Shown piece by piece: positions 3,199 through 21,381 of a stretch of DNA of 34,546 nt (positions are counted from its first letter, which is position 1; every line of letters starts with the position of its first letter). This stretch comes from Azonexus sp. GTDB lineage: Bacteria > Pseudomonadota > Gammaproteobacteria > Burkholderiales > Rhodocyclaceae. Both the position numbers and the translations under genes were made by a program. The DNA lies in contig JAUYEI010000092.1 in the NCBI GenBank assembly GCA_030691385.1, positions 1-34,546 on the forward strand, in the 5' to 3' direction. A model generated the notes under the pieces. It ran no database searches. It was not told the DNA's origin and worked only from the letters and a program-made list of their open reading frames with translations.

Positions 3199-3522
3199 TT
3201 ACTCCTTGCCTTCCGGGACATAGACCATCGAGCCGTCCTTCATCCGGTAGGCGACGCCGGCCTTTTCGCCGTCGCCGCTGCCGATGTTGCCGTTGGCCTT
3301 GTAGTGCTCGATCTTCTCGCCCTTCTTGATGGTCACTTCCATGGTCGGCTTGCCGGGATCGGTGATCACGGTGACGTCCTGCTTGTTGAAGGGGTTGATC
3401 AGCGGGTTCTGCGCCACGGTGATGAACAGCGCGGCGATGATGACGAGGAAGATGTCAATCAGATTGACCACCGAGAGGATCGGATCCTCGGTCTCGGGTT
3501 CGTGCAGCAGCTTGAGGCTCAT
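3199..3522 (-). CDS. DUF2149 membrane protein, HmuV-like
   Basis: A 107-aa protein with an N-terminal membrane helix (about residues 14-38, SVVNLIDIFLVIIAALFITVA) after a short cytoplasmic leader (EPETEDPIL), then a periplasmic domain ending GVAYRMKDGSMVYVPEG. That ending is characteristic, to my recollection, of DUF2149. These proteins are found next to MotA/TolQ/ExbB-type channels and CobN-like proteins in Bacteroidetes and methanogens. The topology imitates ExbD (one N-terminal helix, periplasmic domain), although an ExbD assignment is less likely because the C-terminal domain differs. The ATG overlaps the stop of the ExbB-like gene (ATGA), so the two products are probably made in linked amounts and form a complex. 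Confidence 0.75.
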   Translation of the reverse strand: MSLKLLHEPETEDPILSVVNLIDIFLVIIAALFITVAQNPLINPFNKQDVTVITDPGKPTMEVTIKKGEKIEHYKANGNIGSGDGEKAGVAYRMKDGSMVYVPEGKE

Positions 3523-4001
3523 GCTTGCGCCCCGCGCAATGCTTCGATTTCGAGCATTTCCTCGGCCAGCCAGCGGCGGCGGACATTGACCACCCAGTAG
3601 GTGATGGAAGCGGCGATCAGCGCCAGGATGACGGCCGAGAAGGCGATGGTCAGGTTGTCGGAGACCTTGGCCAGGTTGCCGTCGGAGAGCGATTTGAGCG
3701 CCGGGCCCATGGGGATCATGGTGGCGACCAGGCCGAGCATCGGCGTTACGCGGCTCGCGATGCGCGGGGCTTCGAGCAGCTTGTGGGCGATGACGTCGAG
3801 GTCATCCACGGTCAACCGGAAATTTTGCCTAAAAATGGAAACCAGCGGCCGCCCCTGGCCGCGCCGGCGGTAGTAGGCGAGCAGGCAAAACTCGCCGAGC
3901 ACCCAGAAGGCGTAGAGAAAGAGGGCAGCGATCAGCAGCAGCGTCGGGATCAGGAAGAGCTGCGAGATCTGGTACATCGACAGTTCGATCAGGTTGGGCA
4001 T
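3519..4001 (-). CDS. MotA/TolQ/ExbB-type proton channel protein, HmuU-like
   Basis: A 160-aa inner-membrane protein with three predicted helices: about residues 14-40, then a pair at about 86-106 (TPMLGLVATMIPMGPAL) and 115-138 (NLTIAFSAVILALIAASITYWVV). The order and the G-x-x-A-T-M-I-P-M-G-P segment match the MotA/TolQ/ExbB family, which powers outer-membrane or periplasmic work with the proton gradient. It is shorter than a standard ExbB. An SD (GGAG) lies five bases upstream. The cytoplasmic loop segment SIFRQNFRLTVDD is encoded by one copy of the 36-bp dispersed repeat (3806-3842). It is translationally coupled to the DUF2149 gene downstream. Likely job: energise the neighbouring receptors or the CobN-like machine. 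Confidence 0.85.
   Translation of the reverse strand: MPNLIELSMYQISQLFLIPTLLLIAALFLYAFWVLGEFCLLAYYRRRGQGRPLVSIFRQNFRLTVDDLDVIAHKLLEAPRIASRVTPMLGLVATMIPMGPALKSLSDGNLAKVSDNLTIAFSAVILALIAASITYWVVNVRRRWLAEEMLEIEALRGAQA
3806..3842 (+). repeat. 36-bp dispersed repeat, copy 1 (inside ExbB-like gene)
   Basis: Begins CCACGGTCAACCGGAAATTT and continues with a GCCTAAAAATGGAAA segment. It lies antisense within the ExbB-like coding region and keeps the frame open (FRQNFRLTV). See the consensus described for the other copies. Confidence 0.75.
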
Positions 4002-4048
4002 GAATACTCCAGGGAAACAATTCGGTTGGGGTGGCGGTCAGGGGCGGC

Positions 4049-4228
4049 TTACGGTCGTGCCGGCCCATGCGGTGGGGAGGTGAGAAGGTGGATCAGTTCG
4101 ATCAGGTCGGGGATGCCGAGGGCAACGGTGGTGATCGTCAGGAGCAGGGCGCCTGCCGACAGGAGATAAAGCACCAGTCGTTCTTTGCTTTCCCTGTCCG
4201 GTTGATGCGGATGTCGTGTCGATGCCAT
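4049..4228 (-). CDS. Single-helix membrane peptide, 59 aa
   Basis: A small protein with a charged cytoplasmic leader (MASTRHPHQPDRESKERL) and one hydrophobic helix (about residues 19-42, VLYLLSAGALLLTITTVALGIPDLI), then a short tail. Two starts are possible. ATG 4228 (chosen) has GGGGGAG upstream. ATG 4261 overlaps the end of the preceding TonB receptor and has GGAGG five bases upstream, giving 70 aa. It lies between a TonB receptor and the ExbB-like gene, where Bacteroidetes hmu operons also carry a small membrane gene, but homology cannot be claimed from this sequence. A role as an accessory subunit of the channel complex is inference. Confidence 0.65.
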   Translation of the reverse strand: MASTRHPHQPDRESKERLVLYLLSAGALLLTITTVALGIPDLIELIHLLTSPPHGPARP

Positions 4229-4254
4229 GAGCTCCCCCTCGATGAAAACGGAAT

Positions 4255-6384
4255 TCACCATTTGCCCTCCAGCGACAGCATCACGCTACGCTGGCCGCGC
4301 TCACTCGTTGCCAGCGACCAGTTGTCGTTGCCCGAGCGCGCGCCGGCCAGGCGGCGGGTGTCGGTGCCGAGTACGTTCTGGGCTTCCAGGCGCAGGTTGA
4401 GCTGCGGGGTCAGGCGGCGGGCGACGTAGAGGTCGAGCAGGGTGCGCGCTTTCTGGCGGGTAGCCAGTTCGCCCGGGATGTCGGTTTTCGTGGCGCCGTA
4501 CAGATTGAACTGGAAGCCGGTGCTGGCCTGCCAGGCGGCCAGCGCCTGGTCGACGCCGAGGCTCCACTGGTAGCGCGGCAGGTCGCGGGCGTCGCGGGTC
4601 AGGCCAAGGCGTTCGTCCTCGACGCGGGCCTTGGGCAGGGTCAGGTGGCTGCGGATGGAGGCACCTTTCCAGCCGAAGGCGTCGCCCTTGAGCTTGGCGT
4701 CGAACTCCACGCCCCAATGACGGGCCGTGCCTTCGTTGTAGGGGCGATCCACCCAGCGGCTGCCTTCGAGTGCTGAACGCCGTTCAATGAAGTCCTCGGT
4801 GCGCCGCACGTAAACATTGGCGCCGACGATGCCGGCTTCCTTGGGCAGGTGCTTGTCGAGTGCCAGTTCCCAGTTGATGTTGCGCTCGGCCTGCAGGTTC
4901 GGGTTGCCGCCGCGGTCGGCTTCGAGCGGGCTGTTGAAGCCGGCGCCACGCATGGTCAGGGCGGAAATTTCTTCCAGTTTCGGGGCCTTCAGGCCCGCAC
5001 CAATCGAGGAGCGCAGGATCAGGTCGGGGGCAAATTCGAAGCGCCCGGCCAGCGACGGCGCCAACTGGCTGGCGGTGCGCTGGCGACCATCGGCTTCGAG
5101 CGCGACATGCTCGCCACGCAGGCCGCCGGTCAGCATCAAGGCCTTGGCGACTTGCCATTCGTGCTGCAGCCAGGCCGTCCATTGTTTGGCGCTGGCGTCG
5201 AAGTCGCCGGCATAAATGCTGCTGCCGGTGGTCCGCTGGCTTTCCTCGCGGCGGTGCCAGCTCTGCTCGATACCGGCCGAGAGCAGGCCGTCGCCGAGGC
5301 TGCGGTCGAGGCGGATGGCGGACGACAGTTCGCGCTCGTCGCGGCGGATTTCCTCGCGGCCACTCGTGCTGTTGCCGACGGCGTCGATCCGGGTCCGGTC
5401 GGTGTCCTGCTCGCGCCGGGTGCCCATCACGGCAATCCGGCCGGACAGCTTGCCGAGTCCGGTCTTGCGCTCACCTTCGGCGCGCAGACGGGCGATGGTC
5501 AGTTGACTTTCCTCGCGTTCGCGGCGGCTACCGTCGGCGGCCAGGCCGGTGCCGGCCGCCGGGTCGGCGTAGGCGTCGCGGCTGAACTCGCTGCGCCGTT
5601 CACCCCGGTTGTGATAGAGGCTGGGCCACAGCGACAGGCTGCCCTCACCATCGCGCCAGGTCAGGCGCGGCGAGACGATGAATTCGTCGAGCCGGTAGGG
5701 GCTAGCTTCACGCTCCTCCTGCCACAGGGTGCGCGTCCCGCTGCTGCTTTGCTGGCGGGTCGTGGCCTTCTCCAGCGGCATGGCGTGGTGGTTGATGGTG
5801 AGCGGCACGATCCACGAAAAGCCACGGTCGCCACCGCCCTGGCTCAGCGTGAATTGGCCGTTCGGCTCGTCGCCGCGCAGGCCGACGGCCGCCTTCAGGG
5901 CGGTCGAATTTTGCGGCCGGGCCTTCTTCATGATCAGGTTGACCGTGACCGGCGCACTGCCGCCATGTTCGGCCGAGGCGCCGCGCAGGATTTCGACGCG
6001 TTCCAGTTCGCCGGAAGGCAGGCGGCCGACCGTGGTCAAGGCATAGCGGGCATTGGCCGAAGGGCGTTCGCCATCGACCAGAAACTGTACGGCGTCGCGC
6101 CCCATGCCGCGGGCGTTGGCCGAGGGGCCACCGTCGCCGCTGTGGGCGCCGGCCTCGATGCCGGGCAGTTTGCGGATTACTTCGCCGACGGTCAGGCCGC
6201 CCAGGGCCTCGATTTCGGCGCGGTCGAGCACTGTTTTCTGGGTGACGGCAGCCTGCCGTTCGCTCTCGCCGTCGGCCGTGGCGGTCACGGTTATTGCCTT
6301 GAGTGTTGTCGCTTGGTCAGCCAATGCGTTGCCGGCGAACAGCGCGACCAGGAGGGCTGCCAGCGGTTTCAGGCTGGCGCTCAT
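4255..6384 (-). CDS. TonB-dependent outer-membrane receptor
   Basis: A 709-aa TonB-dependent receptor with a signal peptide (MSASLKPLAALLVALFAGNALA), a plug domain (about 45-165, with RGMGRDAVQFLVDGERP and VEILRGASAEHGGSAPV) and a beta-barrel. A KAPKLEEIS...GGNPNLQAE segment (about 475-500) resembles the FRAP/NPNL boxes of heme and siderophore receptors, and the C-terminus ends in aromatic W (SLEGKW). The ATG overlaps the CobN-like stop by four bases (ATGA), showing tight coupling. The ligand is unknown. Immediate linkage to the exported CobN-like protein suggests a tetrapyrrole or its released metal. Confidence 0.9.
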   Translation of the reverse strand: MSASLKPLAALLVALFAGNALADQATTLKAITVTATADGESERQAAVTQKTVLDRAEIEALGGLTVGEVIRKLPGIEAGAHSGDGGPSANARGMGRDAVQFLVDGERPSANARYALTTVGRLPSGELERVEILRGASAEHGGSAPVTVNLIMKKARPQNSTALKAAVGLRGDEPNGQFTLSQGGGDRGFSWIVPLTINHHAMPLEKATTRQQSSSGTRTLWQEEREASPYRLDEFIVSPRLTWRDGEGSLSLWPSLYHNRGERRSEFSRDAYADPAAGTGLAADGSRREREESQLTIARLRAEGERKTGLGKLSGRIAVMGTRREQDTDRTRIDAVGNSTSGREEIRRDERELSSAIRLDRSLGDGLLSAGIEQSWHRREESQRTTGSSIYAGDFDASAKQWTAWLQHEWQVAKALMLTGGLRGEHVALEADGRQRTASQLAPSLAGRFEFAPDLILRSSIGAGLKAPKLEEISALTMRGAGFNSPLEADRGGNPNLQAERNINWELALDKHLPKEAGIVGANVYVRRTEDFIERRSALEGSRWVDRPYNEGTARHWGVEFDAKLKGDAFGWKGASIRSHLTLPKARVEDERLGLTRDARDLPRYQWSLGVDQALAAWQASTGFQFNLYGATKTDIPGELATRQKARTLLDLYVARRLTPQLNLRLEAQNVLGTDTRRLAGARSGNDNWSLATSERGQRSVMLSLEGKW

Positions 6385-9300
6385 GCGGCCTTCCGCTGGC
6401 GACGAACCACGCTCAGTGCGCCGCCCGTCGTGGCGAGCAGCAGCAGGGCGCCGCCGGCCAGGGCAAGCGGCGGTTGCGGCGGTATCCGCTTGTCTACCTT
6501 CTCCAGCACCATGCCCTGGATCGGTGGCGGGGCCGGCGGGGGCGGTGCTACCAGGTCGGCAGCCGTTTGCGGCCGGGTTGGGGAAGGCGCCGGCGCGGGC
6601 AGCGGTGCAGCCAGGCCGAAGCCGGCCGCAGCAAATTTCTCGAAGGCGGCGTTATCGCTCTTTACGTCATGGCGTTTGGCCAGCTCGCGGTAGCGCTGCT
6701 TCAGTTCGGCCACCGTTTTCGCATCGGCCTGCCAGTAGCCGTGGCGGGCCATTTCGAGCATTTTCTCGATGCTCTGGGCCAGCGCGTGCGGGTTGTTCTT
6801 CTCGAACCAGTCCTTGAGGCCGAGCTTGTGCTTGTCGCGGACATAGACATCGACGAACTCCTGCCACTGGTCGTCGCGCACGATTTCGCGCGAGACGGTG
6901 GTCCACCCGGTGAAGTTGTTGATGCCGTCGAGCACCTGCAAGGTGCCGGCGTAGCCTTCGGCCATCAGGCCCTGGATGTAGCCGGGGTGGAAGTTGCGGG
7001 TGGCCAGTTCCTTGGCCAGGAACTGGGCGGCGCCTTCGATACGCCCGCCCTTGCCGTCGGCGCCGCTGTTGCGCAGGTTGGAGATGTAGAGCTCGGGCGC
7101 CTTGCCGTCGAGCGCCCGGACCGCGGCGCCGATGCCACCCAGGTACTGGAAGGGGTCGTCGGTGGTCAGCATGCCGTAGAGGTTGGAGGTGCGGGCCAGC
7201 ACGGCGCCCTCGGTGCCTTTCAGGTGCACGGCGTAGAGGTTGAGGCGGGCGGCCTTGCCCTCGGCCCCGGCGATGCCTTGCGCGCCCCAGTCGGCCTCGT
7301 CGGCGCCGTAGGCGAACTGCATCTTGGACAGGTAGAGCTTGGCCAGTTTCTTGTCGGCCTCGCCCTTGCTCTTCCAGGTATCGGTGGCCAGCGCGGCGTC
7401 GTCCAGCCCGGTGCCGTAGCGGCCGGATTCGGACGAAAAGATGCGTGTCTCGGCGGCCTTCTGTGCTGCCTTTTCCGGGATGCCCTGGGCGACCAGGCGT
7501 TCGGCGATGGCGCGGCTGTTGGCGTACAGCGGGTTGTCGGCCTCGTTGGCGCGGGCGGCGAGTTGTACGGCCTTGGCCAGTTGCTTCATGGCGTTGGGAA
7601 AATGGTCGCGGTAGAGGCCGGTGGCGGAGAGCACGACATCGACGCGCGGCCGCTTCAACTGCTCGCGCGGCACCAGTTTGACGTCGATAACGCGCCCACC
7701 GGCGTCCCACACCGGTTCGACGCCCATGGTCCACAGCGCCTGCGCTTCGAGGATGCCCTGGTGGCGCATGGTTTCGACCGACCACAGCGAGAAGGCGAGC
7801 TTCTTCGGCGGCCGGCCGGCCTTGGCCGTTTGCGCCGCGATCAGCGCGTCGGCGGCGTCCTTGCCGGCTGCCCAGGCCTGCTGGGTCGGCACCCGCGAGG
7901 GGTCGAAGCCGTAGAGGTTGCGGCCGGTCGGCAGGGCGTCCGGGTTCTTGATCGGGTCGCCGCCGTAGGAGGTCGGGCGGTGCTGGCCGGCCAGGGCCGA
8001 GAGCAGCCCGGCGATTTCGCCCTGGGCGCCGAGGTCGGCGTACCAGCGGCGGCCTTGTTCCAGTTTTTCGGCCAGCGCCTTGTCGGCTGGTAAAGGTGTT
8101 TTGCCGGCCAGCGCTTCGCTGAGCATGCGGAAGGGTGGCGTATTGGTCAGCTTGGTGTAGTCGCCGACGAAAAGCTCGTCGAGATCGTCCTCCTTGACGC
8201 CCATGATGCGGGCGGCAGCTTCGTGGAAGCTCTGGCCGAGCATCAGCAGCACGGTGCCCAGCCGGTGCTTTTCCAGCGGCGGCGTGCCGAAGGTGTGCAG
8301 GCCGAGCGGCTGGGCCATCAGCGCCAGCTCGTGCAGGTGATTGTGCAGTGCGTCGATGAAGGGGCGGAATTCCCGGTCGATACGCGCTTCCGTCCAGCCC
8401 ATATCGCGGTCGATATGTTCTTTTTTGACCCGTTTTTTCAGGTCGACCGCCAGCTTGTCCTTGACCGCACCATCGTCCTGGGCCAGCCACTGGTGCAGCA
8501 GGTCGTGGATGACGGTCAGCGACTCGTGCAGCCCGGCTGGCGCGAAGGGTGGCGTCTGGTGGGTGACGATGACTGCCCGGCCGCGTCGCTTGGCCTGCAG
8601 CGCTTCGCCGATGTTGTCGACGATGTAGGGATAGACCACCGGCAGGTCGCCGACGGCGAGCAGCGGGTAATCAGTGACGGCCAGGCCACGTTCCTTGCCG
8701 GGCAGCCACTCCTGCGAGCCGTGCGTACCGTAGTGGACGAGGGCGTCTGCCTTGAAGTGCTCGCGCAGCCACAGGTAGTGGGCGAGGTAAAAGTGCGAGG
8801 GGGCGGCCTTGGTCGAGTGATAGAGCGCTTTTTCCTTGTCTTCCCAGCGCTCGCCGCGTGGGGCTTGCGGGCTGAAAATGACCTTGCCGACGGCCAGGCG
8901 GGGCATCACGAAGACCGCTTCGCCGCGGTCGACGATAACCATGCCCGACTTCTCCGGGTCGCCCCAGCGTTCGCGCAGTTCGTCCTGGATGGCTGGCGGC
9001 TGCTTTTTCAGCCAGGTGCGGTAGGTGGCGACCGGCAGGCGCTCGGCCAGGCCGTCGCGCAACAGGCCTGCGAGCTGGCCGTCGCGGTAGAACGGCGCAA
9101 GCAGGCGCTGCAGGCTGGTGACCAGCGAAATTTCGGTTTCACCGTGGGTGTCGTAGCCGGCTTCCTTCAGGGCTTTTAGCGTGGTTTCGAAGCTGCGTGG
9201 CAGGTTCATGAACGAGGCGGACATGTTCTTTTCGCCCGGCGGATAGTTCCAGAAAAGCATCGCCACCTTTTTGTCGGCATTCGGCAGTCGTTGCAGGCGG

Positions 9301-10343
9301 ACCAGATTAAGCGCCTTGTTGGCGACGGCGGCGGTCTGCTCGGGGATGACGACGACTTCGCCGCTCGCCTTGTCGCTGGTATTGGCGACGATGGCATCGA
9401 CGATGCCGGCGTATTCGCCCTGCGCCAGGTAGAAGGGCACGTCGATCAGCGGCACACCCTGCGGGTCGGCGCGCCAGGCGGCTTCGTCGCCCTTGCGGTA
9501 AGCCAGAGCCTGGATGACCGGGATGCCGAGTTCGGCCAGCTCCTTGCGCCGGCCTTCGGGGTCGAGGACGATCTGGGTGTTGATCACGGCGTCGGCGATG
9601 GGTTTGCCATCAACGGTCAGCATTTTCTTGTGCGGGCCAAGGACGCCGGCGTAGTAGGGCAGGGCGATGGCGCCGCCGGCTTCGATGCGGGCGAACAGGT
9701 CGTCGATGAAGGTGGTCTGCTCGGCCCCGAGGTAGATCTGGTGCAGCGCGATGGCGATGGTCGGCGGCCGTTTGGCGAGCTCGATGCCGCGCCATTTGAA
9801 GTATTCGGCCGGTGTGGCGAAGACGCGGTTCGGCGCTTTCGGGTGATAGATCGCTTCATCGGGGAAGACGAAGGGTGGCGCCACCTTGGGCAGCGGCTGG
9901 CCGCGCAACTGGGCGGCCAGGGTGGCGAAGAAGCCCTCGTAGTTGGCCCGCCCGCCGTTGGTGTAATAGGCGTGCAGCGTGGCGGCCACTTCCTTGGGTA
10001 GCCCGCCGGCGGCCGGGCCGCTGTCCTTCATCCACAGGTGCGGCGTCTTCAGGCCGTCGAGCCCTTTGCCTAGCTTGCCCTTGACGGCATCCTGCATGTG
10101 GCTGCGGGCGGCGTCGAAGATGATGAAATTGCGGTTTTCCAGCAGTTTTGCCGCTTGCTCGGCCGGAATGTGCTCGGCGAATCTGGCTTCCACGGTCAAC
10201 CCGAATTTTTGGCCAATTTCGGAAACGGTCTTGAACTTGCCGGGCGGCACCGGCGAGGTGGCGACGATCAGGATATTCTCGGCGATGGCGCCTTGCCCCA
10301 GGCAGAGGGCAGCGAGCAGGCAGGCGAAGCGAAGGAGTTTCAT
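6381..10343 (-). CDS. Exported, membrane-anchored CobN-like chelatase, HmuS-like
   Basis: A 1320-aa protein of the CobN/ChlH/BchH large-chelatase family. The signature VHYGTHGSQEWLPGK lies at about residue 535. Unlike cytoplasmic cobaltochelatase CobN, it starts with a signal peptide (MKLLRFACLLAALCLGQGAIA) and ends with a proline-rich linker (about 1230-1280) and one transmembrane helix (about 1293-1312) followed by RRQRK. This predicts a periplasmic enzyme tethered to the inner membrane. The ATPase partners CobS and CobT are absent here. From memory, the same architecture occurs in HmuS of Bacteroidetes, reported to remove iron from heme anaerobically. With a heme-type TonB receptor and ExbB/DUF2149 genes alongside, heme or corrinoid demetallation is the best inference. 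One repeat copy encodes about residues 40-52 (GQKFGLTVEAR). The SD is weak. Alternative: a cobalt or other tetrapyrrole chelatase. Confidence 0.88.
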   Translation of the reverse strand: MKLLRFACLLAALCLGQGAIAENILIVATSPVPPGKFKTVSEIGQKFGLTVEARFAEHIPAEQAAKLLENRNFIIFDAARSHMQDAVKGKLGKGLDGLKTPHLWMKDSGPAAGGLPKEVAATLHAYYTNGGRANYEGFFATLAAQLRGQPLPKVAPPFVFPDEAIYHPKAPNRVFATPAEYFKWRGIELAKRPPTIAIALHQIYLGAEQTTFIDDLFARIEAGGAIALPYYAGVLGPHKKMLTVDGKPIADAVINTQIVLDPEGRRKELAELGIPVIQALAYRKGDEAAWRADPQGVPLIDVPFYLAQGEYAGIVDAIVANTSDKASGEVVVIPEQTAAVANKALNLVRLQRLPNADKKVAMLFWNYPPGEKNMSASFMNLPRSFETTLKALKEAGYDTHGETEISLVTSLQRLLAPFYRDGQLAGLLRDGLAERLPVATYRTWLKKQPPAIQDELRERWGDPEKSGMVIVDRGEAVFVMPRLAVGKVIFSPQAPRGERWEDKEKALYHSTKAAPSHFYLAHYLWLREHFKADALVHYGTHGSQEWLPGKERGLAVTDYPLLAVGDLPVVYPYIVDNIGEALQAKRRGRAVIVTHQTPPFAPAGLHESLTVIHDLLHQWLAQDDGAVKDKLAVDLKKRVKKEHIDRDMGWTEARIDREFRPFIDALHNHLHELALMAQPLGLHTFGTPPLEKHRLGTVLLMLGQSFHEAAARIMGVKEDDLDELFVGDYTKLTNTPPFRMLSEALAGKTPLPADKALAEKLEQGRRWYADLGAQGEIAGLLSALAGQHRPTSYGGDPIKNPDALPTGRNLYGFDPSRVPTQQAWAAGKDAADALIAAQTAKAGRPPKKLAFSLWSVETMRHQGILEAQALWTMGVEPVWDAGGRVIDVKLVPREQLKRPRVDVVLSATGLYRDHFPNAMKQLAKAVQLAARANEADNPLYANSRAIAERLVAQGIPEKAAQKAAETRIFSSESGRYGTGLDDAALATDTWKSKGEADKKLAKLYLSKMQFAYGADEADWGAQGIAGAEGKAARLNLYAVHLKGTEGAVLARTSNLYGMLTTDDPFQYLGGIGAAVRALDGKAPELYISNLRNSGADGKGGRIEGAAQFLAKELATRNFHPGYIQGLMAEGYAGTLQVLDGINNFTGWTTVSREIVRDDQWQEFVDVYVRDKHKLGLKDWFEKNNPHALAQSIEKMLEMARHGYWQADAKTVAELKQRYRELAKRHDVKSDNAAFEKFAAAGFGLAAPLPAPAPSPTRPQTAADLVAPPPPAPPPIQGMVLEKVDKRIPPQPPLALAGGALLLLATTGGALSVVRRQRKAA
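10190..10225 (+). repeat. 36-bp dispersed repeat, copy 2 (inside CobN-like gene)
   Basis: Begins CCACGGTCAACCCGAATTTT and continues TGGCCAATTTCGGAAA. It lies antisense within the 5' part of the CobN-like gene, in frame, encoding part of the segment EIGQKFGLTVEA. It is the most palindromic copy (AATTTTTGGCCAATTT). Confidence 0.65.
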
Positions 10344-10418
10344 GCGGGCGAGAGTCCGTTCTGCGGAAGTGAGGCGAAGTTCATGGCTGGCGGAAATCCG
10401 GCTGGCTGGTGCAGACGG

Positions 10419-10676
10419 TCAATGCAGGGCACGTGTCTCGGCGGCCGGGTAAGGGTCGTCGGAGATGGCCATGTGCAGTTGCGACCACTGGTCTTCCAGT
10501 TGCCGGCCGATCTGTTTGATCAACGGTGCCAGTTGGTCGTCCGGGTAGGCTTGCAGCAGCGCCAGTTCCTTGCGAATCAATGCTGCCTGCTGCGGACACC
10601 CCAGGCAGGAGAAGCGGGTCATTCGATTGAGCAGCGAAGCAATCAGGGCACTGGCGTCGGGAAGTTGGGCAGGCAT
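10419..10676 (-). CDS. Small CxxC protein, 85 aa
   Basis: An unrecognised 85-aa helical protein with C24-L-G-C27 near the N-terminus and a helix-rich remainder (LIRKELALLQAYPDDQLAPLIKQIGRQLEDQWSQL). It has no signal peptide and is probably cytoplasmic. The start at 10676 is preferred over the ATG at 10682 because AGGAA sits about seven bases before 10676 and only two before 10682. It lies just after a strong terminator that follows the heme-type receptor and 75 bases before the CobN-like gene. The CxxC could bind metal or carry redox activity. No family is assigned. Confidence 0.65.
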   Translation of the reverse strand: MPAQLPDASALIASLLNRMTRFSCLGCPQQAALIRKELALLQAYPDDQLAPLIKQIGRQLEDQWSQLHMAISDDPYPAAETRALH

Positions 10677-10688
10677 GTTCATTTCCTG

Positions 10689-10727
10689 AAAAAAAGCGTC
10701 GGCCGCTTCTTCGAAAAGCGGCCGACG
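10689..10727 (-). terminator. Rho-independent terminator/attenuator between receptor and CxxC gene
   Basis: A 13-bp perfect stem, GCGTCGGCCGCTT (10696-10708) with its complement at 10716-10727, has a 7-8 base loop. On the minus strand it is followed directly by seven T residues (10689-10695). It lies 12 bases after the TonB receptor stop codon and just before the SD of the CxxC gene, so it should limit read-through into the CobN half of the operon. Confidence 0.85.
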
Positions 10728-10738
10728 CCAACGCGGGA

Positions 10739-13009
10739 TCAGAAATCGGCCTGGAACGAGAGACGCAGATTGCGGCCGGGCTGAGTGTAGAAATCGACCG
10801 CCGTCGGATTGTTTCCTTCCGCCGTGCGGATGTCGGACCACCGCCAGTATTTCTGGTCGAAGACGTTGTTGACCGCAAGCACGACACGGGTATTGGCTGT
10901 CGGCTTGATCCAGCCGGCCAGGTCGGAGACCCCGTAGCCCGGCGTGCGGAACCAGGTGCCGCCGCTGTCATCGACCCGATCCTTGCCGCTGGCCAGGCGC
11001 AGGCGCCATTCGCCGCCCCACTGGCCGACGTCGTAGGCCAGTCCGAAGGAGGCGCGCAAGGGCTCGATGCTGTTGATCGCCACGCCGGTATCGCTGTTCT
11101 CGCCGTGGGCGTAGGCAATGGCGCCATCAACCCGCCAGTTGCGGGCGAAATTCCAGTTGGCGCGAAGCTCGGCGCCGTAAATCCGGACGTTGGCCAGATT
11201 CCTGTACATATAGGTGGTGTACGGAGTGCCGCCGACCGAGACGCAGTTGGGATCGCTCGGGCACGACAGGCGAACGTTCTCGATGAAGTTCTTGTAGTGG
11301 TTGTCAAAGACGGTCACCTGGCCGCGGGCGCTACCCATCCGGGCGCGCAAGCCGACCTCGACGCCCAGGCTGGTTTCCGCCTTGAGGTCCGGGTTCGGCG
11401 TGCTGGCATAAAGCTGCGCGGCATTGCGGAAAGCGCCGTTGACCTCGTTGTAGTTCGGTGCCCGGAAGCCGGAAGCCACTTGTCCGTACAGCGACAGCGC
11501 CTCGTTGAACTTCCACTGGCCGCCGATCTTGGGCGACAGGTGGCCGAATTCCTTTTCGGCGGTCTGGCGATTGATGATGCTCAACACCTGCTGGGCGAGG
11601 GCATCGACCTCCGGTGTCAGGCGGGTGTAGTCGTAGCGCATGCCGGGCGTCAGGGACAGGCGATTGTTCAGCATGGAAATTTCATTCTGGACGTACAGGC
11701 CCAGGGTGTCGGTCACGCCATTGGCGAAATCGCGCAGCGGGTAAGTTTCGCCAGCCAGACCGTAAGTCACGACGCCGGTGTTGACGTTGAGCACGCGGCC
11801 GTCCCGTTTGGTCTCGACACGCTGGCGCATGACGTCCACGCCGTAGGTCAGCAGATTGGCTGCACCGCCAAGCTGGAAGAGCGATTCAAACTGCAGGCCA
11901 AGCCCGCTCGTCTGCTGCTCGAAGAAGAAGTGCTGATTGATGTCGCAGGTCGCGGTCGGCGCTGCCGTGCTGGAAGCCGAGCATCCGGAGGCGGCGGAGT
12001 AACGCGCATTGCTGCGGATCTGATGGTTGGCGTTGTGGCTTTCCGACTCCTGGTGATAGACGCGGCTGACCAGGCGGTTGTAGAACCATCCATTCTTGTG
12101 CTCGTATTCCAGACCGTAGCGGTAGCGCTTTGTTTCATCATCGCCATCCATCGAAGTCACCCGCGACAGTGAGGCTGGCACGCGCATGATGGTGGTTGCG
12201 GCCTCCTGCTCGCGTCCCTCGAAGCTGGCGGTCAGCTTGTGCCCGGTGGCCGGCCGGAAAATGAACTTGGCCAGTGCGCCGCGATCCTCGGTTGTTGCAG
12301 GATTGGCTTTGCTGCGTAGCGGGCCGTAGGTGCTGTCGCTGCCCTGGTTTTTTGTCTCTTCGCCATTGATTTGGGCATAGCCGAGGAGAACGTCCAGTTT
12401 CTCGCTGCGCAGGGCGCCGATGACGCTGCCGGAGAATGCCTGGCTGGCCCCGAAATAGCTGCCGCGCAGACGTGCCCCCTGTTTTGCATCGCCCCGGGCG
12501 ATATCCTCGGGATTGAGCGTCAGGTAGCCGACGACACCGCCGATGGCATCGGAGCCGTAAAGGCTGGAGGCCGGGCCGCGAACGATTTCCACCTGACGCA
12601 GGAAGTCGGTCATCGGGCCCGAGGGGGCATTCATCGTGTAATTGGTCGGGCCGCCGCCATTGAAATAATCCGGCAGGCGAACCCCGTCGACCATCTGCAC
12701 GACACGGTTGTCCTCGATGCCGCGGATATTGACCCGCGTCGCCCCGTGGCGGCGCATGTCGCGCGCCATCGTGATATCCGGCTCATCACGGAAAAGATCG
12801 GCGTCGTCGACCGGCAGGCGACGATCGATATCGCGCCGGTTAATGCTGGTTACCGTCGCGCTGAGTTGGTCGATGGCCGTTTCGTGGCGGTTGGCGGTAA
12901 CGACGGTGTCGCGCAACTCGGCTTCGGCGATAGCGGCGGGTGCGGCGAAAGCCGACAGCAAAACAAATGGAATGACCCGCATCTTCGTGCGGGTGAAAGG
13001 GCTGTGCAT
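10739..13009 (-). CDS. TonB-dependent heme/hemoglobin-type receptor
   Basis: A 756-aa receptor with a signal peptide (MRVIPFVLLSAFAAPAAIAEA after a short leader). The plug domain carries RVNIRGIEDNRVVQMVDGVR and VEIVRGPASSLYGSDAIGGVV, close to the pattern of heme/hemoglobin receptors (PhuR/HmuR/HemR type). The barrel holds FRAP (about 514-517) and NPDLKAE (about 540), the FRAP/NPNL boxes of heme receptors, though I see no histidine between them. It ends FQADF, a normal barrel C-terminus. The start at 13009 is supported by GGAGGT six bases upstream. It is the first gene behind a Fur-box promoter and has its own terminator. Heme or heme-protein import is likely. Confidence 0.88.
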   Translation of the reverse strand: MHSPFTRTKMRVIPFVLLSAFAAPAAIAEAELRDTVVTANRHETAIDQLSATVTSINRRDIDRRLPVDDADLFRDEPDITMARDMRRHGATRVNIRGIEDNRVVQMVDGVRLPDYFNGGGPTNYTMNAPSGPMTDFLRQVEIVRGPASSLYGSDAIGGVVGYLTLNPEDIARGDAKQGARLRGSYFGASQAFSGSVIGALRSEKLDVLLGYAQINGEETKNQGSDSTYGPLRSKANPATTEDRGALAKFIFRPATGHKLTASFEGREQEAATTIMRVPASLSRVTSMDGDDETKRYRYGLEYEHKNGWFYNRLVSRVYHQESESHNANHQIRSNARYSAASGCSASSTAAPTATCDINQHFFFEQQTSGLGLQFESLFQLGGAANLLTYGVDVMRQRVETKRDGRVLNVNTGVVTYGLAGETYPLRDFANGVTDTLGLYVQNEISMLNNRLSLTPGMRYDYTRLTPEVDALAQQVLSIINRQTAEKEFGHLSPKIGGQWKFNEALSLYGQVASGFRAPNYNEVNGAFRNAAQLYASTPNPDLKAETSLGVEVGLRARMGSARGQVTVFDNHYKNFIENVRLSCPSDPNCVSVGGTPYTTYMYRNLANVRIYGAELRANWNFARNWRVDGAIAYAHGENSDTGVAINSIEPLRASFGLAYDVGQWGGEWRLRLASGKDRVDDSGGTWFRTPGYGVSDLAGWIKPTANTRVVLAVNNVFDQKYWRWSDIRTAEGNNPTAVDFYTQPGRNLRLSFQADF

Positions 13010-13113
13010 GCAAGACCTCCAGCAAGTGAATGAATCAATTGGCTGGCTGCCTTGCAAAGCTAGGTGGCTGGCGTTAACTGTTTACAAGTTGCTCCCTGTG
13101 CAACCTGGTAAAA

Positions 13114-13132
13114 CATAATGATAACGATTCGT
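13114..13132. promoter_or_regulatory. Fur box over the heme receptor promoter
   Basis: CATAATGATAACGATTCGT matches the 19-bp Fur consensus GATAATGATAATCATTATC at 13 positions by eye. It covers the -10 element and spacer of the promoter at 13118-13146, so Fur with iron would block transcription of the heme receptor operon. Confidence 0.7.
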
Positions 13133-13146
13133 AATTCGATTGGCAA
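13118..13146 (-). promoter_or_regulatory. Sigma-70 type promoter of the heme receptor operon
   Basis: On the minus strand, TTGCCA (13141-13146) and TATCAT (13118-13123) are separated by exactly 17 bases. The predicted transcript would start near 13110, giving a leader of about 100 bases before the ATG at 13009. Confidence 0.55.
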
Positions 13147-13220
13147 GGCGTATCGAACTTCGTTGCACTACGGATACGCTCGCCGTTCGATGTCAGGCAA
13201 TTCCGTCAGGTCCGGGACTG

Positions 13221-14459
13221 TCATGCATCGGCCTGTGGCTTGACCGGCTCGTCGCAGCCTTGCCCGCCGTCCGGCCGTGGCCCGGCAAGAGTTTGCCAGG
13301 AGAAGAGGAGATAGACGCCCCAGGCCAGAACCCAGAGCAGGGCGGCCGTATGCAGCAGGGGGGCGAAAAGACCGGCCAATAGCGGCCAGCCGGCTGCGCC
13401 ACGGAGCAGGGCCGCGGCCAGCAGCAGGCCGGCGGTGAGCGGCAGCCAGCGCCGGTGATCGAGGCCCCAGCCGCTGTGCATGCGGCCGGCCACGGCCATG
13501 ACGATCAGCACCGACAGGCCGAGGGCGCCGACCAGCAGCAGGTGTTCGCCGGCGCTGGTCAGCGGGCTGTCGGTGAGCAGGCCCCAGCCGATGGTGGCGT
13601 AGCCGAGCGCCATGCACCAATAGACGAGGTAGGGAATGAGCACCCAGCGCTGGCCCAGCGCCCGGCCGACGTGCCAGTCGTTAAGCAGGTTGAAAACGGC
13701 GGCGGCAGCGGCCAGGGCGAGCCAGCCGGTGACGGCGTTGCCGGGGAGCAGGAATGCGCCGAGGCTGTAGGCGGCAATGGCGACGATGGCCAGATTGCGC
13801 CGTGGCGGCCGGGCCAGGTAGGGGGCCGCGAAGCCGCCCTGGGTTTCGAGCACATCGTTGACCAGGCGCATCGAGATGCGCGACAGGGCGACGACGATGA
13901 GGATCATCAATAACCCGATGGTCAGGCGCAGCCAGGCCATCGCGTCGCCGCCGCTGTGCAGGGTGACGTAAAAGCCGGCATGGACGACGCCGAGGGCGAG
14001 CAGGGTGTGGAAGAAGGCGAGGTGGCGCCGGCTTGGTTGTTGCCACAGTGGTTTTGCCACGGCGGCCAGCAGTAGCGCCAGCAGGCCGAGATCGAAGGCG
14101 GCAGCAGGGAGCACGCCGAGCGTGCCGGACAGCGCGAAGGCAATGCGCCCGGCCAGCCAGATGGCCACCAGCAGTTGCAGGCGACGGCGTGGAATCGACG
14201 GGGTGCCGGTGAATTCCGGCACGGCCGTGAGCAGGAAACCGGCGATCGAGGCCGTTGCGAAACCGAAGAGCAGTTCATGGGCGTGCCAGACGACCGGGCC
14301 GCCGGCGACCTCGGGCAGCGGCAGCACACCGGCCAGCAGGCCGACCCACCAGGCGATGGCGAGCGCGCCGTGGGCGGCGGTGAGCAGGAAGAAGGGCCGG
14401 AAGGGGCAGATCCAGACTCCCACGGTCAACCGGAAAAAACGGCCAAAAATGAAATTCAT
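13221..14459 (-). CDS. nnrS: NnrS family heme-copper membrane protein
   Basis: A 412-aa polytopic inner-membrane protein with about twelve hydrophobic helices. The NnrS signature is clear: CPFRPFFLLTAAH near residue 18 and H59-A-H61-ELLFGFATASIAGFLLTAVPEFTG. NnrS proteins contain heme and copper and protect denitrifiers from nitric oxide stress. Its ATG overlaps the stop of the ABC ATPase (ATGA). The first 14 residues (MNFIFGRFFRLTVG) and the start codon come from a copy of the 36-bp repeat, so the ancestral start may have been further in. It is the last gene of an operon with a TonB receptor and an ABC importer, an unusual setting for NnrS. Confidence 0.9.
   Translation of the reverse strand: MNFIFGRFFRLTVGVWICPFRPFFLLTAAHGALAIAWWVGLLAGVLPLPEVAGGPVVWHAHELLFGFATASIAGFLLTAVPEFTGTPSIPRRRLQLLVAIWLAGRIAFALSGTLGVLPAAAFDLGLLALLLAAVAKPLWQQPSRRHLAFFHTLLALGVVHAGFYVTLHSGGDAMAWLRLTIGLLMILIVVALSRISMRLVNDVLETQGGFAAPYLARPPRRNLAIVAIAAYSLGAFLLPGNAVTGWLALAAAAAVFNLLNDWHVGRALGQRWVLIPYLVYWCMALGYATIGWGLLTDSPLTSAGEHLLLVGALGLSVLIVMAVAGRMHSGWGLDHRRWLPLTAGLLLAAALLRGAAGWPLLAGLFAPLLHTAALLWVLAWGVYLLFSWQTLAGPRPDGGQGCDEPVKPQADA
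14419..14455 (+). repeat. 36-bp dispersed repeat, copy 3 (5' end of nnrS)
   Basis: Reads CCCACGGTCAACCGGAAAAA and continues CGGCCAAAAATGAAA. It spans the first codons of nnrS on the opposite strand and abuts the end of the ATPase gene. Confidence 0.8.
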
Positions 14460-15187
14460 GCGCGCTCCGGCAAGGCAAAGGCGGCGCGGATGTCCGGCCA
14501 GCGGATGAACTCGGCGGTGCGGGCGAAGACCCAGTCCTCGTCGCGCTCGGCAACCGGCGTCCGGATGGCGCGCTCGGCGACGATGCGCCCGGGGCTGCCG
14601 GCCATGACCAGAATGCGGTCGGCCAGGCGGATGGCTTCCATCAGGTCGTGGGTGATCATCAAGACCGCACAGCCGCTCGCCACGCGCTCGCTGGCGAGCA
14701 ACTGGTACAGCTCGCTTTTCAGGCCGATGTCGAGGGCCGAGAAGGCTTCGTCGAGCAGCAGCAGGTCGGGCTGCACGGCGAAGGCGCGGGCCAGCGCGGC
14801 GCGGCTCTGCATGCCGCCGGACAGGGCGCTCGGGTATTTGTCGAGATCGTCGGCGGTCAGGCCCATCTTCAGCGCCAGCGTCTCAGCCGCGGCATGGCGG
14901 GTGGCGCGCGGCTGGCCGGCGGCCTTGAGGCCGAGGGCGATGTTGTCGCGGGTGCGCTTCCAGGGCAGCAGGCGCGGTTGCTGGAACATCATGGCCGGTC
15001 GCTCGAAGCGGCAATCGATGCAACCCTCCCACGGGTCGAGCAGGTCGGCCGCCAGGTTGAGCAGCGTCGTCTTGCCGCAACCGGAGGGGCCGACCAGCGC
15101 CACCGCTTCACCGGCCGCGACGGTCAGGTCGATGTCTTCAAGGACGCGCTGGTAGCCGAAGCGATGGGCCAGCCGTGAAATGCTCAG
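14456..15187 (-). CDS. ABC transporter ATP-binding protein, NitT/TauT family
   Basis: A roughly 243-aa ABC ATPase: Walker A GPSGCGKTT (about residues 31-39), Q-loop MFQQPRLLPWKRT, signature LSGGMQSR, Walker B LLLLDEAFSALD and H-loop ITHDLMEA. The sequence style matches SsuB/TauB/NrtD. No ATG, GTG or TTG occurs at a sensible place. The reading frame is open upstream into the permease, and a CTG at 15187 overlaps the permease stop (CTGA) and gives the normal distance to Walker A, so I use it, with modest certainty. It acts with the permease and binding protein upstream to import an unknown small solute. Its stop overlaps nnrS. Confidence 0.85.
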   Translation of the reverse strand: MSISRLAHRFGYQRVLEDIDLTVAAGEAVALVGPSGCGKTTLLNLAADLLDPWEGCIDCRFERPAMMFQQPRLLPWKRTRDNIALGLKAAGQPRATRHAAAETLALKMGLTADDLDKYPSALSGGMQSRAALARAFAVQPDLLLLDEAFSALDIGLKSELYQLLASERVASGCAVLMITHDLMEAIRLADRILVMAGSPGRIVAERAIRTPVAERDEDWVFARTAEFIRWPDIRAAFALPERA

Positions 15188-16017
15188 GGATTTGATGAGG
15201 CAAACTCCCGCCAGGATTCGACCCGGCGCTTGATCGGTTCGAGCAACAGGTATTCGACGGCCAGAAGGCTGCCGACCAGCGCAACGATCCAGGCCATTGA
15301 GGCGGCGGTGTCGAGGTGGCTGCGCGTCACGGCCAGGGCGGCGCCGATGCCGTCGGTGGTGGACAGCAGTTCGGCCATCACGACGACCTTCCACGAGGTG
15401 CCGAGCGCCGTGATCCAGGCCGGGAACAGGTAGGAGACGATGTGCGGCAGGTAGACGTCGGTGAATTTCATCGACAGCGGCAGCTGGAACATGCGGGCGA
15501 CTTCCTTCAACTGGCCGTCCAGCGTCCGGGTGCCCTGCATGGCGCCGACGAAAATGATCGGGAAGCAGGCGATGAACACCGTAAACACCGGTGTGCCGTC
15601 GCCGGCACCGAACCAGAGCAGGGCGAGGATCAGCCAGGCGATCGGCGGCATGCCGACGAGCAGGGTGACGAGCGGGCGCGCCATCATCGAGGCGGTCATC
15701 GAGATGCCGGCGAGCAGTCCGAGCAGGCTGCCTAGAATCAGGGCCAAACCGAAGCCGAGCAGGGCGCGGCGGGCGGTGATCAGGATGTCGTCGCGGGCCG
15801 AGCCGTCCTGCAATAGCTGGCCGAGGGTGGCGAAGGCTTCACGCGGCGTCGGCAGGATCAGCGAGCCGAGGCTTTGTGCGGTCAACTCCCAAATAGCCAG
15901 GAAAATGAACAGGCTGGCCAGTGACCCCCAGCCGCTCCACAGGTAGTTGCCGGTAGCGGCCAGCCAGTCCAGGGCGCGATTGCGGCGCGCCAGCTCGGAA
16001 AATGCCGGGGCTTTCAA
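15184..16017 (-). CDS. ABC transporter permease, NitT/TauT family
   Basis: An inner-membrane permease of about 277 aa with six predicted helices. The EAA-type loop is visible at about residues 170-195 (GTRTLDGQLKEVARMFQLP), as in SsuC/TauC (BPD_transp_1). No ATG is available near the start. A TTG at 16017 overlaps the binding-protein stop (TTGA), mirroring the ATGA overlaps elsewhere in this operon, and leaves a short cytoplasmic N-terminus before the first helix. The ATG at 16245 is rejected because it would run 230 bases into the binding-protein gene with non-protein-like sequence. Partner of the ATPase and binding protein beside it. Confidence 0.85.
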   Translation of the reverse strand: MKAPAFSELARRNRALDWLAATGNYLWSGWGSLASLFIFLAIWELTAQSLGSLILPTPREAFATLGQLLQDGSARDDILITARRALLGFGLALILGSLLGLLAGISMTASMMARPLVTLLVGMPPIAWLILALLWFGAGDGTPVFTVFIACFPIIFVGAMQGTRTLDGQLKEVARMFQLPLSMKFTDVYLPHIVSYLFPAWITALGTSWKVVVMAELLSTTDGIGAALAVTRSHLDTAASMAWIVALVGSLLAVEYLLLEPIKRRVESWREFASSNP

Positions 16018-17021
16018 GGCCGGACCGGATTGCCGTAGAAGCGCTCGTCGGGCAGCTTGCCGCCGATCAGTGCCGAGTTTTTGCCCGCAAGCTGGTTGAA
16101 AAAGAATTCCAGTTCGCCCCGCGCGGCCTGGCCACTGACCGCCCGCATCTGGCTGACGGCCAGCGAATCGGCCACCGCCTGCGGTGTCAGCAGGTCGATG
16201 CGCTTGGCGACCAGCTCGCCGCATTGCAACGCGTTCTTCTGGCACCAGTTCAGGGACGTTTCGTAGGCGGCCATCACCTTGGCCTGCAGGGCTTCATCCG
16301 CCATGGCCTTGCCGATGACCGTAATGCCGGCCTGCGGAATGCGTGCCTCCCGCCCGTAAAGGCGGCCCCATTCCTGTTGCAGGTCGACGCTGCGGTGGAG
16401 TTCCGGCGCGATGAGGCTGACCGGGAAGGACTGGGTCTTGCGCAAGGCCATCGATACGGCGGGTTCGGCGAGCAGGGCGTGGTCGACGCGCCGGGTGATC
16501 AGCAACTGCATGGCGTCGAGCGGCGAAGCGACGTAGCGCAGCTTGAAGTCCTTTTTCGGGTCCAGCCCCTGCTTTTCGGCGATGAGCCCGAAGACGATGT
16601 CCGGCATGTCGGCCCGGAAGGGCATGGCGATTTCCTTGCCGCGAAAATCGGCCAGCGTCCTGGCCTTGGCATCGCGCGACACCAGCCACAGCACGCCCCA
16701 GGTCGAGACATTGAGCAACTTCAGCCCGACGCCCCGGTTGTAGAGGTTGGCCGCGACATTGCTCGGCATGGCGACGAAATCCGCCTTGCCGCCCAGAGCC
16801 AGCACCCGTAGTTGATCCGGATCCTTCCAGACGACGAACTCGACGCTGTCGGCGACATCCTTGAGTGCCCCGGTTTCCATCATGTGGATCAGCGGCGTCG
16901 ATACAGCAGCGGGCGGGCCGGCCAGGATCAGCTTGGGAAGTTTGTCGGCCCGGGCCGGCGTCAGCAGCGACAGCCAGCCCAGTGCGAGCAGGGAAAGGAA
17001 ACGGAACAGGGACAGGATCAC
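16014..17021 (-). CDS. ABC transporter substrate-binding protein, NMT1/SsuA-like
   Basis: A 335-aa periplasmic binding protein with a signal peptide ending ARA-DK (about residue 25). The NMT1/SsuA/TauA-type fold is suggested by GPPAAVSTPLIHMMETG, LALGGKADFVAMPSNVAANLYNRG and DFRGKEIAMPFRADMPD. The start is a GTG at 17021 with GGAGAG nine bases upstream. Members of this family bind nitrate, sulfonates, thiamine precursors or other small anions, and the ligand cannot be read from the sequence. It sits between a Fur-box TonB receptor and the permease, so it may take over what the receptor imports. Confidence 0.85.
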   Translation of the reverse strand: MILSLFRFLSLLALGWLSLLTPARADKLPKLILAGPPAAVSTPLIHMMETGALKDVADSVEFVVWKDPDQLRVLALGGKADFVAMPSNVAANLYNRGVGLKLLNVSTWGVLWLVSRDAKARTLADFRGKEIAMPFRADMPDIVFGLIAEKQGLDPKKDFKLRYVASPLDAMQLLITRRVDHALLAEPAVSMALRKTQSFPVSLIAPELHRSVDLQQEWGRLYGREARIPQAGITVIGKAMADEALQAKVMAAYETSLNWCQKNALQCGELVAKRIDLLTPQAVADSLAVSQMRAVSGQAARGELEFFFNQLAGKNSALIGGKLPDERFYGNPVRP

Positions 17022-17039
17022 AGGTTCAGGCTCTCCAGG

Positions 17040-21261: not shown

Positions 21262-21294
21262 GTTGTTCTCCCTGTGCTGAATTTCACTGAAATT

Positions 21295-21330
21295 CCACGG
21301 TCAACCGGAAAATTTCGCTGAAATCCAAAT
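21295..21330 (+). repeat. 36-bp dispersed repeat, copy 4 (ahpC-ahpF gap)
   Basis: Reads CCACGGTCAACCGGAAAATT and continues TCGCTGAAATCCAAAT. It is intergenic, 34 bases upstream of the ahpF ATG, in the same orientation as all other copies. Confidence 0.8.
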
Positions 21331-21356
21331 GATCGAGCGGTGTGTGCCGCTCGATC
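21331..21356. terminator. Hairpin between ahpC and ahpF
   Basis: GATCGAGCGG (21331-21340) pairs with CCGCTCGATC (21347-21356), a 10-bp stem with a 6-base loop. On the minus strand, the direction of ahpC to ahpF, no T-run follows, so it is more likely an mRNA-stabilising or processing hairpin, or a leaky attenuator, that keeps ahpC message above ahpF. Confidence 0.5.
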
Positions 21357-21381
21357 CTCGATCCTGAAAACTACGGGCTAG

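Follow-up and report, generated by a model that had tools for sequence, protein, structure and literature searches.

Contig JAUYEI010000092.1 (C82) of Azonexus sp. (assembly GCA_030691385.1, a genome rated 99.93% complete) was analyzed over its whole length of 34,546 nucleotides, hereafter the window, and carries on its minus strand an operon built around an exported CobN-type chelatase. The operon runs from a TonB-dependent receptor (TonB1) through a CxxC protein, the chelatase, a second receptor (TonB2), a one-helix peptide and an ExbB-like channel to a DUF2149 protein, with intergenic gaps of at most 75 bp and overlaps at three junctions. We consider it quite possible, without calling it probable, that this is an iron-starvation locus for the periplasmic release of metal from heme or a heme-like metalloporphyrin, with a chelatase that may be motor-driven. 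This proposal draws on the gene set, the export signal, the clade, the tail helix, a near-constant partnership with ExbB and DUF2149 and the conservation of the promoter, all of which are features of the sequences themselves.

A first-pass annotation, made from the DNA letters, had named these genes with their order and positions and likened their content to the hmuRSTUV operons; profile searches and open reading frames (ORFs) bear out both claims, as well as the exported CobN-like nature of the chelatase and the assignment of the last gene to DUF2149. One gene call was revised: the CxxC protein is present, with 87 aa from the ATG at 10682 and not the 140 aa of the longer ORF. The observation is thus confirmed with corrections, and its interpretation is partly supported, as detailed below. 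The elements of the operon are as follows.

13114..13146, minus strand: sigma-70-like promoter overlapped by a Fur-like 19-mer (13/19 to a consensus that we take to be that of Fur)
10739..13057, minus strand: TonB1, PhuR-like heme/hemoglobin outer-membrane receptor (TIGR01785, TIGR01786)
10695..10729, minus strand: strong intrinsic-terminator-like hairpin between the receptor and chelatase genes (folding energy)
10419..10682, minus strand: CxxC protein, 87 aa, FSCLGCP motif (ORF; no family above cut-off)
6381..10343, minus strand: exported CobN-type (BtuS/HmuS class) chelatase, 1320 aa (PF02514, 975 bits)
6495..6521, minus strand: IQGMVLEKV motif in the chelatase tail, directly ahead of the membrane helix (motif scan)
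6405..6467, minus strand: C-terminal membrane helix of the chelatase (hydrophobicity)
4255..6384, minus strand: TonB2, second TonB-dependent receptor (PF00593, PF07715), with a 4-bp overlap with the chelatase stop
4049..4261, minus strand: one-helix peptide, 70 aa, in the HmuT slot (ORF and overlap; no family match)
3519..4001, minus strand: ExbB/TolQ-like channel, three hydrophobic segments (PF01618, 28.3 bits, cut-off 22.9)
3199..3522, minus strand: DUF2149 protein (HmuV-type), one membrane helix with a conserved Asp23 (PF09919, 99 bits)

For comparison, 159 PF02514 chelatases were gathered, 109 of an exported clade and 50 cytosolic, where "exported" denotes a best match to an exported-type seed together with a place in the exported clade. 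This set includes one contig twice (L042 = L120) and several near-copies; L042, L114, L100 and L132 were dropped from the receptor counts. Plasmid records supplied the three HmuS sequences. As the named loci comprise the best 80 of 558, they favor window-like chelatases; related loci come mostly from Rhodocyclales and Burkholderiales, among them that of Azospira oryzae DSM 21223 (L075).

Phylogenetic position and active site of the chelatase

The chelatase consists of a signal peptide, the chelatase core, a Pro-rich tail and a C-terminal membrane helix. A FastTree phylogeny of the 159 PF02514 proteins and an IQ-TREE phylogeny of 48 agree on the clades: HmuS and three further types, A, B, and C, form one exported clade (support 99, SH-aLRT 100), from which cytosolic CobN (100) and BchH (100) stand apart. 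The window chelatase lies inside type A, a clade of its own with 91 rows (support 100), and outside the HmuS clade of three sequences (support 100). With its signal peptide, tail helix and clade support of 99 and 100, it belongs to the BtuS/exported CobN-like class. The placement with HmuS proposed in the first-pass annotation thus holds for the exported clade, but not for the HmuS clade or for the residue and insertion marks of HmuS. Among named relatives, the nearest chelatases are those of an uncultured betaproteobacterium (L066, 89% identity), a Dechloromonas metagenome-assembled genome (MAG) (L067, 90% over residues 10–1222) and an Azonexus MAG (L068, 82%).

The superfamily His is kept in the motif VHYGTHG, in which His541 corresponds to His-538 of HmuS; it is found in 90 of the 91 type A chelatases, with a gap in one. 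The HFG(T/A)HG His mark is superfamily-wide, so it is not diagnostic of HmuS. The HmuS mark LSLDHxxEFMGG is absent from the window chelatase, which has LTTDDPFQYLGG, with Asp1063 at the position of His-1209 and Gln at that of Glu-1212. At the former position, Asp occurs in 83/91 type A and 36/37 cytosolic CobN proteins, and His in 3/3 HmuS. The Met-rich insertion of HmuS domain IV was not found in the aligned segment 700–775 (mean Met fraction of type A, 0.025), a mark that is also weak in the Aureibacter HmuS used (0.031). Plain HmuS membership was rejected on the second-site residues, the missing insertion and the tree position. Eight type A chelatases form a sub-clade (support 97) with His at the HmuS His-1209 position; these proteins, from L043, L140, L142–L145, L181 and L182, have the motif DHPFEYLGG, which carries both the HmuS His and Glu.

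In HmuS, the H538A variant retains heme binding and loses the formation of protoporphyrin IX (PPIX) (PMC12583661), and the equivalent His is kept here. These data argue against the protein being a periplasmic chaperone of heme or metalloporphyrins, or a metal inserter, rather than a metal releaser. We regard such a role as improbable, although a btuS1 btuS2 double mutant of Bacteroides fragilis still produced PPIX (PMC6460266) and the Porphyromonas gingivalis authors leave a chaperone role open (PMC13227078).

Some features of the chelatase run counter to a dechelatase of the exported class. The NCBIfam model NF004644 names it a cobaltochelatase (1380 versus a cut-off of 1248), its residues at the HmuS His-1209 and Glu-1212 positions are those usual in cytosolic CobN, and a crude signal-peptide rule is satisfied by 97 of the 109 exported proteins (0/50 cytosolic). 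Even so, an ordinary cobaltochelatase subunit of B12 synthesis would hardly have a signal peptide, a tail helix and a position outside the cytosolic clade, and this alternative is very improbable. There is no match to CobT (PF06213) in the genome, CobS not having been searched for, and the window proteins that were scanned include no cob gene. Placement inside cytosolic CobN with linked CobST, the outcome that the first-pass annotation had set against its own reading, does not agree with the tree or with the missing CobT match; a cytosolic B12 cobaltochelatase was rejected on the export signal, the clade position and the lack of a CobT match.

The same genome encodes a second exported-type chelatase (L006, 11814–17095; contig C57) with its own ExbB and DUF2149, located between CobO and CobB in a corrinoid-context module. 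Type C chelatases, this one among them, adjoin CobO and CobB.

Tail helix and the ExbB–DUF2149 partnership

A hydrophobic C-terminal tail helix is present in 109/109 exported-clade and 0/50 cytosolic chelatases, with a lowest 15-residue mean of 1.59; the averaging length had been switched from 17 to 15 residues after inspection of discordant rows. Exported tails have a median of 105 residues, whereas the cytosolic chelatases end a median of 4 residues past the core. Directly before the helix, the motif [VIL]xGxx[LMFQ] occurs in 97 of the 98 type A and B proteins versus 5.2% of shuffled tails; neither the type C tails (8) nor the HmuS tails (3) match it.

The partnership is near-constant. ExbB and DUF2149 are both near the chelatase in 103 of the 109 exported loci and in 0/50 cytosolic loci, only 15 of which have at least 3.5 kb on both flanks. 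Five of the six exported chelatases without a nearby pair lie at contig ends. Among 398 Pseudomonadota genomes, DUF2149 is found in 17, including that of the window, and in 19/19 places it stands beside an exported-clade chelatase and ExbB. PF02514 is found in 134 of the 398, with not all proteins fetched, and exported chelatases without DUF2149 may exist in G203, G287 and G447, which have split, type-C-like matches and no DUF2149 match.

The membrane helix of DUF2149 has an Asp in 102 of 103 proteins and a Glu in one, as in the helix-Asp mark of ExbD/TolR, and the ExbB partners share a conserved PMLGLvATMIPMGPAL segment (97 aligned) and keep the Thr of the second transmembrane segment (TM2). 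No DUF2149 was recruited by a profile made from the ExbD proteins of these loci, and DUF2149 as a plain ExbD was rejected.

From these sequences, the ExbB–DUF2149 pair may well drive the chelatase, which we consider the likeliest reading without calling it probable. It competes with the explanation that the pair energizes the outer-membrane receptors and that the chelatase works unaided, which we consider rather unlikely. The HmuS authors draw HmuU/HmuV as energizers of heme import (PMC12583661); the homology to ExbB points the same way, and receptors are found near most chelatases. Moreover, L041 (4580–5344), L124 (9205–9900) and L131 (6946–7383) contain a same-strand TonB without an adjacent ExbD beside the receptor, the chelatase and ExbB–DUF2149, as is expected if ExbB–DUF2149 drives TonB there; one stator shared by TonB and chelatase is possible in these three loci, which count against a motor dedicated to the chelatase.

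The gene arrangements elsewhere argue for the chelatase as the partner. ExbD is found in 12 of the 163 loci scanned. Eight loci (L055, L075, L093, L096, L116, L139, L140 and L221, the last being Trichlorobacter lovleyi) carry a full TonB–ExbB–ExbD set on the strand of the chelatase and the pair and no more than about 7 kb from them. Such a set is also present in L143, whose contig stops before any ExbB–DUF2149, on the opposite strand in L141, and without a complete chelatase in L087. In 5/5 listed type B and C layouts (e.g., C57, L059–L061), ExbB–DUF2149 adjoins the chelatase and not the receptor matches, and DUF2149 stands beside a chelatase in all 19 places mentioned above. Over 64 loci, distances correlated with the chelatase at r = 0.74 for ExbB (partial 0.40) and 0.67 for DUF2149 (partial 0.12), and with the receptor at 0.46 (partial 0.14) and 0.39 (partial −0.02), respectively, which leaves DUF2149 without a partial association with the receptor. 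Bootstrap ranges for the partial values overlap, DUF2149 distances mainly track ExbB, and an uncounted number of pairs was removed for saturated distances.

Other findings speak against a motor function. L149 has an exported chelatase with neither ExbB nor DUF2149 nearby and is not a contig-end miss. An hhalign comparison of DUF2149 with ExbD covers 19 columns (probability 55%), limited to the helix with no likeness beyond it, and the AlphaFold model of DUF2149 is unreliable (pLDDT 61.7). A TM3 Glu that most of 9 canonical ExbB proteins have is missing from the ExbB partners. Finally, with NADH, purified HmuS converts heme to PPIX (PMC12583661), and demetallation in vitro thus does not strictly require a motor. 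A role in moving heme across the inner membrane is suggested by the P. gingivalis authors (PMC13227078). In the open-licence literature, we found neither the idea of ExbB–DUF2149 as a motor, which is no proof of its absence, nor a test of the roles of the ExbB-like and DUF2149 partners of HmuS.

Receptors and the likely substrate

TonB1 exceeds the cut-offs of the two curated models for heme receptors, TIGR01786 (439 bits, cut-off 324) and TIGR01785 (412 bits, cut-off 317), and its best match among solved structures is the heme receptor PhuR (319 bits, nearly full length), followed at a distance by ShuA (75), in line with the heme-type receptor proposed earlier. It contains what we take to be the FRAP and NPDL motifs. 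In 30 close-homolog rows, in which the window is counted twice, Tyr550 is kept in 29 with a gap in one, and Cys359 and Cys371 in 30/30.

The relatives show a similar, though mixed, environment. The nearest chelatase relatives, L066 and L067, carry a TonB1-type receptor. Of 66 receptors beside type A chelatases, each heme model is matched by 34 and CirA by 4 at E ≤ 1e-96; at E ≤ 1e-90, the numbers are 34 and 34 for the two heme models and 16 for CirA. In 22 of the 89 loci with a type A (window-type) chelatase, a ChaN-like gene is encoded on the same strand no more than 7 kb away, ChaN being assigned by the heme-binding family PF04187 for the L098 protein (124 bits) and by similarity to it for the others, the weakest being that of L080. 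It is found in 16/36 loci with a TonB1-like receptor (at least 150 bits) versus 0/30 others (Fisher 1.5e-5); 6 of the 22 ChaN loci are outside this test as copies or for want of an assigned receptor.

The genome itself has one FeoB candidate (160 bits, a 650-aa frame) and no match to PF05171 (HemS). The first-pass annotation had noted that the window lacks a heme oxygenase gene, and this extends to the whole genome for PF01126 and PF10615, the IsdG and radical-SAM (HmuW/ChuW) families not having been searched. Taken with the receptor and its neighbors, heme is the likeliest ligand of this locus as judged from sequence.

Several observations nevertheless count against heme. The residues that we take to be the heme ligands of PhuR could not be matched to TonB1 with certainty, the numbering offset being unsure, and no ChaN was found in the genome of the window. 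L095, L068 and L071, whose chelatases are 79–87% identical to that of the window, have a different, non-heme first receptor, and because close relatives of the chelatase differ in this way, heme as the substrate rests on context. The chelatase might then strip the metal from another complex, such as a zinc, cobalt or nickel chelate, an explanation we judge unlikely. In its favor, the PA1922–1925 operon of Pseudomonas aeruginosa, with the same four gene kinds, is Zur-regulated (PMC4542158, PMC9431628), and its expression rises as much as 147-fold when znuA is mutated (PMC4542158). The second-site residues are CobN-like, and a Runella homolog lies inside a NiFe-hydrogenase maturation (hyp) operon. 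On the other hand, the promoters of the relatives are Fur-like rather than Zur-like, and heme-type receptors and ChaN co-occur.

The Runella module (L146, 4110–12144) is located on a plasmid and comprises a receptor, a weakly NicO-like protein (below cut-off), ExbB, DUF2149, and the chelatase, a context hinting at nickel.

Promoter and terminator

The Fur-like 19-mer ahead of TonB1 overlaps a predicted sigma-70-like −10 element (13146–13118). Scoring used consensus sequences that we take to be those of Fur and Zur. Taken alone, the site is weak: about one such site per window is expected and 5 were found, of which 2 overlap each other and one is inside NnrS, and the window contains none with 3 or fewer mismatches. 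Support for Fur control comes from the relatives, since such sites recur before their receptors. A Fur-like score of at least 13/19 is reached by 35 of 68 receptor promoters versus 1.8% of first-order Markov controls and, with four copies dropped, by 32 of 64 versus 3.1%; for receptors at least 40% identical to TonB1, 17 of 27 promoters reach 13. The Fur-box promoter of the first-pass annotation is supported by its overlap with the −10 element and its recurrence, while the lone site in the window is unremarkable.

The Zur consensus reaches at least 11 in 1/64 promoters of the relatives (controls 0.3%) and at least 10 in 2/64 (controls 3.0%). At the window promoter, the best Zur match has 9 of 13 fixed positions, against a shuffled mean of 7.5 and a maximum of 10. 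Zur control was rejected, as scores are near background in these loci with two exceptions; among the other loci, L090 scores 11 and one of the 64 scores 12. The genome encodes Fur and a second, Zur-like family member, as named from their sequences. The locus is probably induced by iron shortage.

Immediately after TonB1, a 16-bp GC-rich hairpin followed by a T tract (10729–10695) has a folding energy of −29.7 kcal/mol (z −4.8). A single run from one promoter had been proposed; the genes are indeed contiguous, but this terminator-like hairpin had been overlooked. Because it separates the receptor and chelatase genes, the two may be expressed at different levels, and from its sequence the hairpin may act as an attenuator, with the receptor made in excess of the chelatase.

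Linked upstream genes

On the same strand, a further run of genes (13221–19100) lies upstream, encoding a receptor, an ATP-binding cassette (ABC) importer with a substrate-binding protein (SBP), and NnrS, with a gap of 163 bp between NnrS and TonB1.

13221..14459, minus strand: NnrS, last gene of the linked upstream run (PF05940, 278 bits)
14456..17021, minus strand: linked ABC importer (PF00005, PF00528, PF12974)
14456–15394, minus strand: importer ATPase (ORF bounds; true start further in)
15184–16245, minus strand: importer permease (ORF bounds; true start further in)
16014–17021, minus strand: importer SBP (profile match)
17040..19100, minus strand: TonB4, receptor of the linked run (TIGR01785, 283 bits, below the cut-off of 317)

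Relatives of the SBP, permease or NnrS are flagged in 14 of 85 loci, in three layouts (the flag in L130 being weak), and in L084, L086, L089, L091, L127 and L152 the chelatase genes sit between the SBP and the permease. Because these genes are linked to chelatase genes in other genomes, 3199–19100 may form an extended unit in the window.

Downstream of the operon (187–2888) are a ribosomal-S4-like gene and another TonB receptor; the S4-like gene is also near the module in L066, L071, L072 and L075, and the receptor likewise in L066. The genes at 19696–24999 encode AhpF, AhpC and the periplasmic nitrate reductase NapA.

Comparison with known systems

The closest published counterpart is the HmuS/hmuYRSTUV system of Bacteroidota, with which the locus has in common genes for a receptor, an exported chelatase, an ExbB-type protein and a DUF2149 protein (PMC12583661). 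The chelatases share one deep, well-supported clade, the superfamily His and, in the three HmuS proteins examined, a C-terminal membrane helix; that of the window differs in its separate clade, the lack of the Met-rich insertion, and the Asp and Gln in place of His-1209 and Glu-1212. At the level of the operon, the ORF list and profile scan show neither a HmuY hemophore nor a product of HmuT size among its proteins. The 70-aa peptide occupies the HmuT slot, and a crude scan of 14 relatives found no similar small hydrophobic ORF. An extra receptor, a CxxC protein and a Fur-like promoter are added. The extra receptor, TonB2, falls under every specific receptor-model cut-off in the profile scan, and the FSCLGCP motif of the CxxC protein is also found in L067, L074, L076 and L137.

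BtuS is a third, exported type of CobN-related protein, proposed by Rodionov et al. in 2003 for metalloporphyrin salvage (PMC6460266). It resembles the present protein as an exported, membrane-attached CobN-like protein beside uptake genes, whereas the window locus represents a proteobacterial branch with a PhuR-like receptor and, in some relatives, ChaN. Section 17 of PMC6460266, in its account of BtuS, makes no mention of a partnership with ExbB–DUF2149. PA1922–PA1925 is likewise a single operon of a receptor, a CobN-like protein, DUF2149 and an ExbB-like protein that is called ExbD (PMC9431628), but it is published as Zur-regulated and zinc-linked, and its sequence is not in our tree sets. 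A Trichlorobacter plasmid CobN without CobS or CobT had been noted earlier (PMC3403914). The exported CobN-like class was thus already known; what is added here is a Fur-box, heme-receptor-linked branch together with the motor reading.

CobN of CobNST and ChlH/BchH share the PF02514 core and the active-site His with the window chelatase, but the 50 cytosolic proteins examined have no tail helix and no nearby ExbB–DUF2149. CobN and ChlH/BchH work with AAA+ partners, and CobST-like genes are present in L155. The ExbB–ExbD–TonB and TolQ–TolR–TolA complexes would correspond to the window system in combining an ExbB-type channel with a single-helix partner that bears a membrane Asp, and with a third protein that has one membrane helix and a Pro-rich linker. 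In the window system, however, the third protein would be an enzyme with its helix at the C-terminus, and the ExbD-like match of DUF2149 is confined to the helix.

Proposed mechanism and implications

Combining these observations, we infer heme as the ligand, the direction of the reaction and the coupling to a motor as follows. Iron shortage would lift Fur repression, and TonB1, energized by the ordinary TonB system of the cell, would move heme into the periplasm. There, the exported, tail-anchored chelatase would bind heme and extract its iron, using His541 with Asp1063 in place of the second His of HmuS, and the Fe(II) would enter via FeoB. The ExbB-like and DUF2149 proteins would act as the proton-driven motor of the chelatase rather than, or not only, as a receptor energizer, with the C-terminal helix and Pro-rich tail of the chelatase seated in ExbB–DUF2149 as TonB is in ExbB–ExbD. 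The pair would thereby stand in for the ATP motors CobST and ChlID, which cannot work in the periplasm. By analogy with the chemistry of HmuS, anaerobic use of heme by this locus is plausible.

A broader and more speculative idea, which we hold less firmly than the mechanism for this locus, is that HmuS, BtuS and the branch of the window make up a third class of chelatase machines for tetrapyrroles, with the proton gradient as their source of power. In such a class, a rotary or rocking ExbB–DUF2149 stator would pull on the enzyme through the helix and Pro-rich tail and eject the metal from heme, corrinoids and other chelates outside the cytoplasm.

The oxygen-free removal of iron from heme by HmuS was demonstrated only in 2025, and the present set extends such loci beyond the gut Bacteroidota to bacteria of soil and water, where Fur-like promoters and heme-binding neighbors accompany them. 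The near-constant link between the tail helix, ExbB and DUF2149 makes the power source of a periplasmic chelatase addressable by point mutation. If the proposal is true, a proton-driven chelatase machine would parallel the motors CobST and ChlID, which run on ATP.

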